A stretch of DNA of 38,655 bases from a virus, in IMG/VR virus record IMGVR_UViG_3300043639_000055, positions 1-38,655 of that record; one strand, given 5' to 3'. Both the position numbers and the translations under genes were made by a program. Below the pieces are notes generated by a model. The model did no database searches. It was not told the DNA's origin and saw nothing but the letters and a program-made list of their open reading frames with translations. This document shows positions 27,051-35,662 of the stretch, piece by piece (position 1 is the first letter of the stretch; each line of letters begins with the position of its first letter).

Positions 27051-27060
27051 ATGGTATCAC
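27051..27060. promoter_or_regulatory. Operator-like site ATGGTATCAC
   Basis: Overlaps the -10 box of the - strand promoter at 27051-27078, so a bound repressor would block RNA polymerase directly. Confidence 0.65.
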
Positions 27061-27078
27061 GAACAGGATAGAAGTCAA
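27051..27078 (-). promoter_or_regulatory. Early promoter of the conserved family, for the papain-like gene unit
   Basis: On the - strand TTGACT (27078-27073), 16-base spacer, TACCAT (27056-27051). The upstream GAAAATAGTTG is shared with the promoters at 29487-29514 and 31377-31404. The TGA of the 349-aa gene lies within the -35 box. Confidence 0.7.
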
Positions 27079-28124
27079 CAACTATTTTCGTGTGTCACTG
27101 CGTAATCATGCAGCACGAAGCCGAGAGAAGTGTCGCCGCGCACGTGCTCGCGGATCCAGATCTTCTCGCCCGGGTGGAAGCGGTCGACCCGCCAGTGGCC
27201 GCGCACACTGTGGCCGCGCCGCCGGGCGATGGCGATGGCGCGCTTGGCGATGGTCTTGTACCGTTTCGCCGGCACCGTCAGCGAGACCACGGTGTGCTCT
27301 GAGAACTTCTTGTAGGATCCCCGGGAGACGTAACCACGGCTTGGCTTGACCTGCACCAGCGAGGTCGGCAGGTCGTTGATGGTGGCGAGCAGCGACCACA
27401 GGTACCGCGCGTCGTGCGCCAGTTCGCCCAGCGGGTTGAAGTACTGGTGGGCCATGCTCTTGAATTGCAGGTCTGCTTCGTGGCCGATGTGCGGCGCACG
27501 GATAACCGAAAAAGATTCGGTGTGGTAGTCCAGCACGCCAGTCATGATGCCGGGCGGCGTCGCCACGATTTCGGGATCGCCGGGGTCAACCCGGCACGGC
27601 TGGTTGCTGTGGTAGAACGGATCGCGCGGCCACGGCGGAATCGTGTCGTCGGACGTCCACGCATAGGCAAACTGCCCGGCGTTCGGGTAAGCCTGCCGCT
27701 TGTTCTCGTTGTCCCACGAATGGCTGGTGCAGTGGATCGCCATGAAGGTGGTCTCCAGCTGCGGGTGCTGCATCAACAGCCAGCCCGAGCGATCCGGCAC
27801 GCTGTCGGCCTCCGCCACGATGTCCGGGTGGTAGGCTTCCTTGACGCGCCTGCGGTGCGCCTGCTTGTCGTACTCGATCCACGTCGTGGCGTGGGGCAGC
27901 CGGGCCAGCTTGCGCATGCTCTCGACGAGGTGAGTGCGCGCAGCGATGGTCTGGCAGGCGTTGAGGCTGACGTAGCCGAGATCCGCCATGAACGCCGACA
28001 TGCCCTCGTCGATCACGAACTTGCGCGCTTGGGCGACGTGCGTGGCCAGCCAGTTGTTCTTGTCGATCTTGCGATAGACCGGCCGCTGCCATTCACGGAT
28101 CAGATCGTCGGCGAGCGTGGTCAT
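27075..28124 (-). CDS. Conserved phage hypothetical protein, 349 aa
   Basis: Start ATG 28124 with AAGGAA upstream. The N-terminal half is helical (WLATHVAQARKFVIDEGMSAFM). The last 90 residues hold a signature seen in other phage proteins: VSLTVPAKRYKTIAKRAIAIARRRGHSVRGHWR followed by WIREHVRGDTSLGFV, with conserved His, Arg and Asp. The Arg-rich HSVRGHWR segment suggests nucleic-acid binding. Role unknown. Confidence 0.6.
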   Translation of the reverse strand: MTTLADDLIREWQRPVYRKIDKNNWLATHVAQARKFVIDEGMSAFMADLGYVSLNACQTIAARTHLVESMRKLARLPHATTWIEYDKQAHRRRVKEAYHPDIVAEADSVPDRSGWLLMQHPQLETTFMAIHCTSHSWDNENKRQAYPNAGQFAYAWTSDDTIPPWPRDPFYHSNQPCRVDPGDPEIVATPPGIMTGVLDYHTESFSVIRAPHIGHEADLQFKSMAHQYFNPLGELAHDARYLWSLLATINDLPTSLVQVKPSRGYVSRGSYKKFSEHTVVSLTVPAKRYKTIAKRAIAIARRRGHSVRGHWRVDRFHPGEKIWIREHVRGDTSLGFVLHDYAVTHENSC

Positions 28125-29478: not shown

Positions 29479-29488
29479 GTGATACCAC
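29479..29488. promoter_or_regulatory. Operator-like site GTGATACCAC
   Basis: Lies at the downstream edge of the -10 box of the promoter at 29487-29514, over the predicted transcription start. Confidence 0.65.
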
Positions 29489-29514
29489 CATACGCGGTCA
29501 GGAATACAAGTCAA
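29487..29514 (-). promoter_or_regulatory. Early promoter of the conserved family, for the 29461-27075 unit
   Basis: On the - strand TTGACT (29514-29509), 16-base spacer, TATGGT (29492-29487), preceded by GAAAATAGTTG. The block GAAAATAGTTGTTGACTT is identical to those at 27073-27090 and 31365-31382. Confidence 0.72.
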
Positions 29515-29523
29515 CAACTATTT

Positions 29524-29769
29524 TCACACATCCGCATCGAAGATGACGGCTTGATATCGGTTCGGATCCAGACCCAGCCGCTTGACCGCGCGCATCATCG
29601 GATCGCTGCCGCCCGGGATGATGCAGACGTCCTTGCCGGTCCAGCCGTAGATGTCGACCCAGAACACGATACGGCCGTCGTTGTGCATGTCGCGGATCGG
29701 CATCGACGTCCTGTAGCGGTAGTCGATGCTGGCGGCGCGGATCGCCGCCGACCGTTCCCACTTCTTCAT
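29524..29769 (-). CDS. Hypothetical protein, 81 aa
   Basis: Start ATG 29769 (ATGA overlap). Alpha/beta product (RDMHNDGRIVFWVDIYGWTG ... VKRLGLDPNRYQAVIFDADV). Its stop is directly followed by the conserved promoter block. Family not recognised. Confidence 0.5.
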   Translation of the reverse strand: MKKWERSAAIRAASIDYRYRTSMPIRDMHNDGRIVFWVDIYGWTGKDVCIIPGGSDPMMRAVKRLGLDPNRYQAVIFDADV

Positions 29770-31342: not shown

Positions 31343-31376
31343 CAGGGTATTTGCAAGAAAGTAATGAAAATAGTTG

Positions 31377-31404
31377 TTGACTTCTATGATTAGCCTGCTA
31401 TGAT
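31377..31404 (+). promoter_or_regulatory. Promoter of the isolated + strand gene
   Basis: TTGACT at 31377-31382, 16-base spacer, TATGAT at 31399-31404, the best -10 of the family. Preceded by the shared block beginning at 31365. No operator overlaps it, so it may be the least repressed member. Confidence 0.75.
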
Positions 31405-32863: not shown

Positions 32864-33122
32864 CTTCCTGCTCCTTCTCGTAGTGTTTTTTGCACAGCAA
32901 TGCGAAGCCGCGTTCGTTCAGTTGCAGCGCGAGCGCCGCCGACGCCGAGTAGGACAGCATGGTGTTGAGCGCCAGCAGTGTGGCCTCGTCGTTCTCGATG
33001 CCGACCGTGGCGCAGCGGTCCATGAAGTCCTGTGCGATGGTCGCCAGCCGCAGGCTCATGTGATCGGCGAGATCGCGCGCAGCGACCTGCTTGAAGTCGA
33101 GCCGCTTCACCGGGTCACGCAT
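32847..33122 (-). CDS. Hypothetical helical protein, 91 aa
   Basis: Start ATG 33122. Helical product (VAARDLADHMSLRLATIAQDF ... LALNTMLSYSASAALALQL) ending acidic. Family not recognised. Confidence 0.5.
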   Translation of the reverse strand: MRDPVKRLDFKQVAARDLADHMSLRLATIAQDFMDRCATVGIENDEATLLALNTMLSYSASAALALQLNERGFALLCKKHYEKEQEDETTG

Positions 33123-33271
33123 TTGTAGGACACCTTCGACATCAGGGCCGGCGGCGATATCATCAGCTGCCGGGCGGCGAACTCCTCGCACGCACGCATC
33201 GACACGCGGCCGACCGGCGCGTACGCTTCGGCGCTCCCGTTGATCGACAGCACCAGCCAGAGCATCTTCAT
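33107..33271 (-). CDS. Hypothetical protein, 54 aa
   Basis: ATGA overlap with the alpha-CTD-like gene. Starts MKMLWLVLSINGSAEAYAP, where the hydrophobic start is too short for a clear membrane helix, and ends with a basic KVSYKCVTR. Confidence 0.45.
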   Translation of the reverse strand: MKMLWLVLSINGSAEAYAPVGRVSMRACEEFAARQLMISPPALMSKVSYKCVTR

Positions 33272-33636
33272 TTTGCGCACCGCTTCGAGCAATAGATGTC
33301 GAAGTGCGATCCGTTCTGCTGAGAGATCCAGCCCGCTTCCTCGACCACCTTGGCCACGTTGATCCTGCCGTCGCGTGTCTTGACAGATCTCTGGTTGTTG
33401 GCACCGCACATCGAGCAATAAAAACCTACCATCACAGTGCTGACGGTGCTCGGCTCAAGTTCTTCCAGACATTCTTTCCAGCGCCGCAGCGAACCCCGGT
33501 TGAAGTTCGGCCCCTTCAGCAATTGGGCGTCACTCAGCGTGCGCGCCTGTCCGACAGTTTCGCAGCCCAGATTCTTCAGGCAGTTGCGCACGCGCACTGG
33601 CAGCTTGAGGCTGTCTAGTTTCAGGTCGTCGATCAT
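33268..33636 (-). CDS. RNA-polymerase alpha-CTD-like protein fused to a Cys cluster
   Basis: A 122-residue protein. Residues 5-60 (LKLPVRVRNCLKNLGCETVGQ ... DAQLLKGPNFNRGSLRRWKE) match the C-terminal domain of RNA polymerase alpha. Residues equivalent to E. coli R265, N268, C269 and S299 are kept (R15, N18, C19, S49); those equivalent to G296, K298 and E302 are changed. Residues 72-122 add C74, C77, C116 and C120, a probable zinc site. Alpha-CTD binds UP elements and activators, so this could redirect host transcription or compete for promoter DNA. The fold could also serve general helix-hairpin-helix DNA binding. Confidence 0.75.
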   Translation of the reverse strand: MIDDLKLDSLKLPVRVRNCLKNLGCETVGQARTLSDAQLLKGPNFNRGSLRRWKECLEELEPSTVSTVMVGFYCSMCGANNQRSVKTRDGRINVAKVVEEAGWISQQNGSHFDIYCSKRCAK

Positions 33637-34649
33637 TATGCTGCCTCTGCCGGTGCTTCAGCGCCCCATGCACTCCAGCCCGGCCGCGTCTTGCGAGCGT
33701 TGAGTTCAATCTTTGGAATGTTGGGATAGTACTGCTCGATCATCTCCATGAAGCATTCCGGCTTGGCGGAGTGCCTACCCTTCGGAACTTGCTGCACCGA
33801 TTCCCACTGCGTGCCCATGGCGGGCGCTGGGATCTTGCCACGGGTGCCGATCAGCAGGATCTCGTGCTTGCTGCGATTCCAGCGGCCAGTGCTGATCTTG
33901 TCTTTGTGCCAGACGTAGTTCGATTTGTATTCGAAGCCCCACGCTTCCATAACGTGGATTGCGATGCGCAGATGCTGGTTGGTCGTCCACAGGAACAGCA
34001 CCGCATCCGGGGCCGCAATCGAATCGACGTCGCGCGCTGCGATCACCGACGCTGCACTGGTGGCGTAGGGCGGTGCGCGGTCAGATCCGGTGGCTTCGTC
34101 CCATACCTCGTCCTTCCACTCCGGGTCTGCGTAGACGACACCGTAGCGCGCGTTCGGCAGCGCCTTGATCTTCGTCGCGGTGGCGACCTCGCGGGCGGCT
34201 CGCGCCTTGGTCTTCTCGGCCTGCTGCTCCTTGCGCGCCGCCTTGACCACTGCGGCGTCGCCTTCGGTGGCGGCCACTGCGATCTGCACTGAGCGCGCGA
34301 CCTGCTTCTCGAATTTCTCTTCGGACATCGCTGCCGACTTGCGCGCCCGGTCTGCAAGGTGCTTGTCGATACCTTGGTCAGATAGCGTTTTTCTATTGGG
34401 TCGCTCGGCGACCTTTTTCCGGCCGCGTTTGAGCTTGCCGGTCTTGCGGTCGGCTTCCATCAACTCGCCGAGACGACGCTCGGCGCGCTTCCTGATCGCG
34501 GTCGCATGCGCGATCAGGTCGCCGTCTTTGGCCAGCTTGGCGTATACCGCCATGGCGACGGCCTTGTCGCGGATACTCTTGACTTCATCGACACGTGTTG
34601 CGCTGGCCAACGCTTTGCGGGCGGCGTCGTATTGAACAAGCTTGGTCAT
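33636..34649 (-). CDS. MT-A70-family DNA N6-adenine methyltransferase with DPEW motif
   Basis: A 337-residue protein. Residues 1-160 are charged helices with an ERRLGELM segment, likely a DNA-contacting arm. The catalytic part starts ARYGVVYADPEW (D175-W178): DPEW where the family has DPPW. It continues with DAVLFLWTTNQHLRIAIHVMEAWGFEYKSNYVWHKD, SKHEILLIGTRG and ECFMEMIEQYYP. These are the MT-A70 landmarks. Phage enzymes of this type methylate adenine, often against restriction. The P-to-E change in the catalytic motif is unusual. TAATG overlap with the alpha-CTD-like gene. Confidence 0.82.
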   Translation of the reverse strand: MTKLVQYDAARKALASATRVDEVKSIRDKAVAMAVYAKLAKDGDLIAHATAIRKRAERRLGELMEADRKTGKLKRGRKKVAERPNRKTLSDQGIDKHLADRARKSAAMSEEKFEKQVARSVQIAVAATEGDAAVVKAARKEQQAEKTKARAAREVATATKIKALPNARYGVVYADPEWKDEVWDEATGSDRAPPYATSAASVIAARDVDSIAAPDAVLFLWTTNQHLRIAIHVMEAWGFEYKSNYVWHKDKISTGRWNRSKHEILLIGTRGKIPAPAMGTQWESVQQVPKGRHSAKPECFMEMIEQYYPNIPKIELNARKTRPGWSAWGAEAPAEAA

Positions 34650-34674: not shown

Positions 34675-35565
34675 TCAGGCGATAGCCGGATACGCCCGGT
34701 TCTCTTTGAAGGTGACGTCGGATGCGATCACCTTGCGACCCGCGCGATAGGCGTTCCAGACCTGCACGATCAGTGCGTTGATCCAGACGTCGTTGAGCCG
34801 GCCGCCATTGTCCTTGCGGGCTTTCGCCAGCGCAGCGGTCAGCTTGCGCGCACCGTTCGCGTTCTTGTCGAAGTCAATAGCCAGTTTCTTGGTGACTGTG
34901 GCGCTCTTCTTTTCGAACAGGTAGAAGTGTGCTGCCAATGCTGGGTGCGGCACGGTCTTGCTGGCACATTTGGCGCGGGCGATAGCGCGTTCCATCGCGT
35001 CCGCATCGACCTTCTCCTTGTAGAAGGCCCACGCCTCCTGACTGGAGAACGACAGCCGCGCCTCCGGGTCGCCCAGTCCGTAGATCATCAGCCAGCGAGT
35101 CGCGCCGGAGGCGATGCCGTAGTCCGGCACTCCGGCGATATAGAACGCATCGCTGTTCTTGCGTGACGCGCCGGAGTTGATGGTCGTGAAGACGTTGTCG
35201 TCGATTCCGAACACGACATAGGTCTTGAAGCTCTTGTTCGAACTGACGCAGCCCAGCAGGCGGTTCTGCCCGTCCAGCATCTTCTGCCGGCCAAAGATCA
35301 GCGGCTCGCCGGTCAGCATCCAGTCGCCACGTTCCATCGCTTCGGCATAGCGGCGGATGCGCGCCGGCTTGCGCTTGCGGTTGCCGGTGGTGTTGTAGGT
35401 GTCGAGAAGCCAGTCGGCGAACGACGGCGTGATGGTGATGACCCGGGAGTTTTCCGGCGGGTCTTTCATCAGGAGCTTGAAGATCTCCTGCTGCTTGGCG
35501 AGCGGTGCGTTGGGGTCAATAAAGCGCGGCGACCCCTGCTTGGGGGCGAGTTGACTAACAGACAT
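34675..35565 (-). CDS. ParB/Srx-fold-like protein with DGQNRL motif
   Basis: Start ATG 35565 with AGGTGG upstream gives 296 residues; ATG 35592 is also open. Residues 70-140 (IRRYAEAMERGDWMLTGEPLIF, MLDGQNRLLGCV, FKTYVVFGIDDNVFTTINSGASR) match phage and actinobacterial proteins with a ParB-like DGQHRL core. The Q-N-R form keeps the Arg. The C-terminal half is helical and basic. It lacks the canonical ParB HTH and GERR motif, so it is not an obvious partition protein. DNA binding or nucleotide-dependent action is inferred. Confidence 0.62.
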   Translation of the reverse strand: MSVSQLAPKQGSPRFIDPNAPLAKQQEIFKLLMKDPPENSRVITITPSFADWLLDTYNTTGNRKRKPARIRRYAEAMERGDWMLTGEPLIFGRQKMLDGQNRLLGCVSSNKSFKTYVVFGIDDNVFTTINSGASRKNSDAFYIAGVPDYGIASGATRWLMIYGLGDPEARLSFSSQEAWAFYKEKVDADAMERAIARAKCASKTVPHPALAAHFYLFEKKSATVTKKLAIDFDKNANGARKLTAALAKARKDNGGRLNDVWINALIVQVWNAYRAGRKVIASDVTFKENRAYPAIA

Positions 35566-35662
35566 AAGAACCACCTTGGTGGGTGCCGGCATCTGGCCCC
35601 TGCCAGCATGGGGTGCGTCAACCTACTGATACCAAGAACTGGTTGTCAACTGCTCGCCCCCA
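35541..35662. repeat. Inverted repeat TGGGGGCGAG flanking the ParB-like gene start
   Basis: TGGGGGCGAG at 35541-35550 and its complement at 35653-35662, each followed on its own strand by TTGAC within a few bases (directly, and after CA plus G). The pair brackets the promoter/operator and the start of the ParB-like gene. May be regulatory or coincidental. Confidence 0.45.
35626..35635. promoter_or_regulatory. Operator-like site CTGATACCAA with weak promoter
   Basis: Lies downstream of a - strand TTGACA (35649-35644). The only -10 candidate is TAGGTT at 18 bases, so the promoter is uncertain. The core TGATACCA is intact. Confidence 0.5.

Follow-up and report, generated by a model that had tools for sequence, protein, structure and literature searches.

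A two-domain gene beside a methyltransferase

We identified, in an IMG/VR virus record of 38,655 bases that may be a fragment of a genome (hereafter the window, meaning the whole stretch of DNA analyzed), a gene for a basic protein (computed pI 9.1, charge +5.5) that joins a domain like the C-terminal domain of the RNA polymerase alpha subunit (alpha-CTD) to a segment with four cysteines. The gene, its two domains and its neighbors are as follows:

33107..33271, minus strand: 54-aa small ORF (MKMLWLVLS...), downstream; an internal ATG of a 103-aa ORF (ORF list and junction)
33268..33636, minus strand: alpha-CTD gene, 122 aa, ATG start (ORF, PF03118 match and AlphaFold2 model of both domains)
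33271..33450, minus strand: four-Cys domain, residues 63-122, with C74, C77, C116 and C120 (AlphaFold2 without alignment; BLASTP to Gumball gp56)
33451..33636, minus strand: alpha-CTD-like domain, residues 1-62, with R15, N18, C19 and S49 equivalent to R265, N268, C269 and S299 (PF03118, VIA-align, residue table)
33636..34649, minus strand: MT-A70 family DNA methyltransferase, upstream in the same operon (PF05063, E 3.6e-22; phrog_359, 'DNA methyltransferase')
34675..35592, minus strand: 305-aa protein, phrog_5931 (unknown function), upstream of the methyltransferase gene (PHROG match; conserved in viral contigs L046 and L047)

The TAA of the methyltransferase gene and the ATG that opens the alpha-CTD gene have one base in common (junction TAATG), and the TGA of the alpha-CTD gene overlaps the ATG of the 54-aa ORF by four bases (ATGA). 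These overlaps at both ends place the alpha-CTD gene within an operon, and the one-base junction points to co-expression with the methyltransferase. The other half of the window carries myovirus baseplate, fiber and lysis genes; the closest recorded baseplate hub proteins, 43-47% identical, are those of Synechococcus phages Ssp-JY38 and Yong-L2-223 and Agrobacterium phages Milano, 7-7-1 and OLIVR4. A tail fiber gene in the window has collagen-like repeats (PF01391, 9048-9717).

Folds of the two halves

The N-terminal half matched the Pfam profile RNA_pol_A_CTD (PF03118) over residues 4-59 (42.1 bits, E 6.9e-11; cut-off 23.8), and helix-hairpin-helix families (PF14520 and kin) gave no Pfam match at E up to 1. 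A phmmer search of the PDB returned almost exclusively alpha subunits, the best match being alpha-CTD chain 9zum (1.3e-6); together with the overlaps with both neighboring genes, these matches rule out a chance ORF. The AlphaFold2 model, built on an alignment of 16 alpha-CTD-containing proteins, reached pLDDT 94-97 across residues 1-50; the rpoA sequences in that alignment may aid the fold, but the sequence matches do not depend on it. Nearly all of the top Foldseek rows were alpha subunits or alpha-CTDs (about 1.0 Å), and VIA-align superposed the model on solved alpha-CTDs with Z scores of 10-12 (rmsd 0.9-1.5 Å over 57-62 residues), ahead of the RAD51-type N-domains that ranked next (Z 8.5-9). 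The first-pass annotation, made from the sequence, had read this segment as an alpha-CTD fold and had named a generic helix-hairpin-helix as the alternative; profile, structure and residue-level tests support the former and the latter did not occur. No PHROGs family matched the alpha-CTD half. The assembly domain that forms the N terminus of RpoA is absent, the CTD match starting at residue 4 of the 122-aa protein, so the protein cannot assemble into polymerase as the alpha subunit does.

The fused four-Cys segment, likewise anticipated, spans residues 63-122 with the spacing C74-x2-C77-x38-C116-x3-C120. Predicted alone and without an alignment, it formed a compact domain of its own fold, a beta-beta-alpha-beta-beta unit (AlphaFold2, pLDDT 84), and the Cys layout suggests that it probably holds zinc. 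Comparison of this model with the PDB returned nothing meaningful (best Z 2.6). In the viral library the best Foldseek rows were short actinophage proteins (probability 0.72-0.99 at E 0.01-0.4) of Arthrobacter phages Melons and Kuleana and Mycobacterium phages Gumball and Omnicron. Gumball gp56 (80 aa; judging by its length, the listed B5U3T4) likewise has a CxxCG, helix, CxxxC layout and aligned with the window protein in pairwise BLASTP (E 4e-4), each of the four Cys pairing with its counterpart; the phrog_24640 profile gave no match. Gp56 stands alone, without an alpha-CTD, and its PHROG (phrog_24640) is of unknown function. A Rhodococcus phage Madraxi match (E 10) was dismissed because the Cys layout is missing.

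Contact residues, relatives and origin

In E. coli numbering, C269, S299, G296, K298 and E302 of the alpha-CTD are generally regarded as DNA contacts and D259 and E261 as the sigma contact. The residue table shows that the window protein keeps R265, N268, C269 and S299, as proposed in the first-pass annotation, and K271 as well. The positions equivalent to K298 and E302, also flagged there as altered, are G and R (K298G, E302R). Not flagged were G296N and two changes in the acidic sigma-contact patch, D259S and E261K, the latter reversing the charge. G296N, K298G and E302R take away part of a DNA-contact surface kept in nearly all other phage alpha-CTDs inspected, which counts against DNA binding: Goe8 gp005, L039, L041, L043 and L044 keep R265, N268, C269, G296, K/R298, S299 and E302, and in L042 S299 is replaced by C. 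DNA binding depends critically on R265 and N268, however (PMC11434276), and because both are kept it stays plausible, though the surface is not intact. The window protein probably binds AT-rich DNA.

With the bacterial RNA polymerase alpha CTD (PF03118; E. coli 1lb2, Caulobacter 9zum) the window protein thus has the profile, the fold and all five kept residues in common; it differs in the five substitutions, in the missing alpha N-terminal domain and in the position of its alpha-CTD ahead of a four-Cys domain. Other phages also carry such proteins. Alpha-CTD domains occur in seven other viral contigs (L039-L045), where the proteins that contain them range from 140 to 412 aa and vary in their N-terminal parts; Bacillus phage Goe8 gp005 (YP_009849950.1, 210 aa), annotated as RNA polymerase subunit alpha, has one at its C terminus; and in the viral structure library several uncultured Caudovirales proteins carry the name 'RNA polymerase, alpha subunit, C-terminal' (A0A6J5M7I6 and others). 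All resemble the window protein as small proteins with a lone phage-borne domain, but in those inspected, unlike in the window protein, the domain stands behind other modules, and most keep the full DNA-contact surface. Lone alpha-CTD proteins of phages are thus already in databases, some of them annotated, without a function, and a literature search found no functional study of a free or phage alpha-CTD protein. Among the contigs, L043 (5077-6315, 412 aa) and L045 (283-762, 159 aa; alpha-CTD degenerate) each encode a phage protein that pairs two DNA-binding domains related to polymerase, sigma70 region 4 and an alpha-CTD, in a single fusion. L041 (5755-6189) and L040 (2200-2670) combine an N-terminal half resembling phrog_2201 (as tested for L041) with a C-terminal alpha-CTD that has an intact DNA-contact set.

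Lone alpha-CTD-like domains are also found in free proteins of Bradyrhizobium (about 71-214 aa; for example QRI73759.1 and loci L048, L062, L064 and L095-L103), present in about one sixth of 60 sampled genomes. They share with the window protein the TVGxxR and SD/GS motifs, the loss of E302 and, mostly, of K298; they differ in having no four-Cys domain, in the loss of C269 in all inspected and in their location in bacterial genomes and plasmids rather than phages. Two longer Bradyrhizobium proteins (L105:1541-2548, 335 aa; L106:1356-2534, 392 aa) begin with a T5orf172-like segment, whose match is weak and passes the cut-off only in L106, fused to two tandem alpha-CTDs very near those of host rpoA.

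The window domain scored 49.4 bits with the rpoA CTD profile and equally with the profile of the Bradyrhizobium free family, and a tree joined it to the Bradyrhizobium group on a long branch (support 98/92). We rejected recent capture of a host rpoA CTD, against which these results and an identity of only about 40-45% speak. The equal scores and the tree make it likelier that this lone alpha-CTD is old and divergent than that it came recently from the host's rpoA. The search of alphaproteobacterial genomes returned host rpoA almost alone; a Yoonia plasmid match proved to be an unannotated full rpoA, and the match in MT839982 was an rpoA fragment followed by an apparent L17. Whole-protein or C-terminal-half queries found no homologue of both halves in phage records, plasmids, IMG/VR, GTDB contigs or 385 alphaproteobacterial genomes, and an alpha-CTD followed by a four-Cys domain was seen nowhere else in the databases searched. 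PF03118 was absent from the 33 viral contigs with related methyltransferases, several of them fragments; these include L002/L046, with 55% and 68% identity at the two neighboring genes. The alpha-CTD gene therefore looks accessory.

Promoter-like sites and candidate functions

The first-pass annotation had also described an upstream block shared by phage promoters. We found it in three exact copies: the string GAAAATAGTTG occurs exactly three times in the window (27079, minus; 29515, minus; 31366, plus) and in none of 100 shuffles, each copy directly preceding TTGACT, 16 nt and TAxxxT:

27051..27089, minus strand: promoter-like site, GAAAATAG upstream block, TTGACT, 16 nt, TACCAT
29487..29525, minus strand: promoter-like site, GAAAATAG, TTGACT, 16 nt, TATGGT
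31366..31404, plus strand: promoter-like site, GAAAATAG, TTGACT, 16 nt, TATGAT

An identical 11-base A-rich block thus lies immediately before the -35 at all three sites; the promoter string GAAAATAGTTGTTGAC was in none of the related loci. GAAAATAG falls at about -45 to -38, which in E. coli is the location of the proximal UP-element half-site, so the block sits where an alpha-CTD would bind. Read in the ordinary way, GAAAATAG would serve the host's own alpha-CTD as an UP element. The operon of the alpha-CTD gene does not directly follow any of the three sites, and to tie the gene's product to them, on their position, is speculation.

Our preferred account, with moderate confidence, is that the gene product binds the minor groove of DNA as a polymerase-independent protein of the alpha-CTD type, has a four-Cys domain besides, and is an accessory regulator of promoters with AT-rich upstream DNA. 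The reading draws on the PF03118 match above cut-off, the close superposition of the model on solved alpha-CTDs, the kept residues, the basic charge and a C-terminal domain predicted to fold alone, as well as on the A-rich block at the alpha-CTD site of phage promoters and on the structure of a Caulobacter alpha-CTD solved on its own with AT-rich DNA (9zum, among the Foldseek matches). The N-terminal domain would grip the AT-rich minor groove through R15 (R265) and adjacent helix ends, and the four-Cys domain, probably zinc-bound, would give a second contact, by dimerization or with a partner protein. Made together with the DNA methyltransferase from one operon, the protein would most likely be an accessory factor that regulates promoters, of the phage or of the host, whose upstream DNA is AT-rich.

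The first-pass annotation had gone further, proposing that a free alpha-CTD could act in trans: it would compete with host polymerase for UP elements or for activators that bind alpha-CTD, lowering host transcription, or would redirect polymerase to the phage promoters that carry GAAAATAG. Phages do attack the alpha-CTD by other means, such as Rac-dependent cleavage (PMC7552054), and the conserved R265, N268, C269 and S299 and the A-rich block just upstream of the -35 at three phage promoters agree with the idea. We nevertheless consider it unlikely, because D259S and E261K disrupt the contact to sigma, as K298G and E302R do that to DNA, the protein has neither an alpha N-terminal domain nor a polymerase tether, and the gene's own operon follows none of the three promoters. 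Competition with, or redirection of, host polymerase is thus unsupported, the sigma-facing patch being charge-reversed; the observation was right and beyond chance, the domain assignment was right, and the mechanism is speculative.

It is distinctly unlikely that the fold serves as a general DNA- or protein-binding module outside transcription, as in the RAD51 N-domain or in BREX PglW, a kinase with an alpha-CTD-like domain (PMC12839542). The match to RAD51-type domains and the loss of the sigma patch fit such a role, but PF03118 is the sole sequence match, no helix-hairpin-helix family appears, and alpha-CTDs outrank other folds structurally. Quite improbable is a DNA-binding protein that delivers the MT-A70 enzyme to phage DNA or restricts it there: the one-base overlap of the genes favors a partnership, but the enzyme family seems able to do without, given the 33 contigs, several of them fragments, in which related enzymes occur without PF03118. 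We give very little credence to an alpha-CTD supplied in trans that would bind GAAAATAG beside the -35 of the phage's own promoters while its four-Cys domain brings host polymerase there or retains it; to our knowledge, a detached UP-element reader is known from no characterized phage.

Lone alpha-CTD-like domains occur in unrelated phages as well as in Bradyrhizobium, and the domains they are combined with are many. Should one of them read UP elements in trans, this would be a new phage route to govern host polymerase; if it does not, the alpha-CTD fold would have been reused as an ordinary DNA-binding module.
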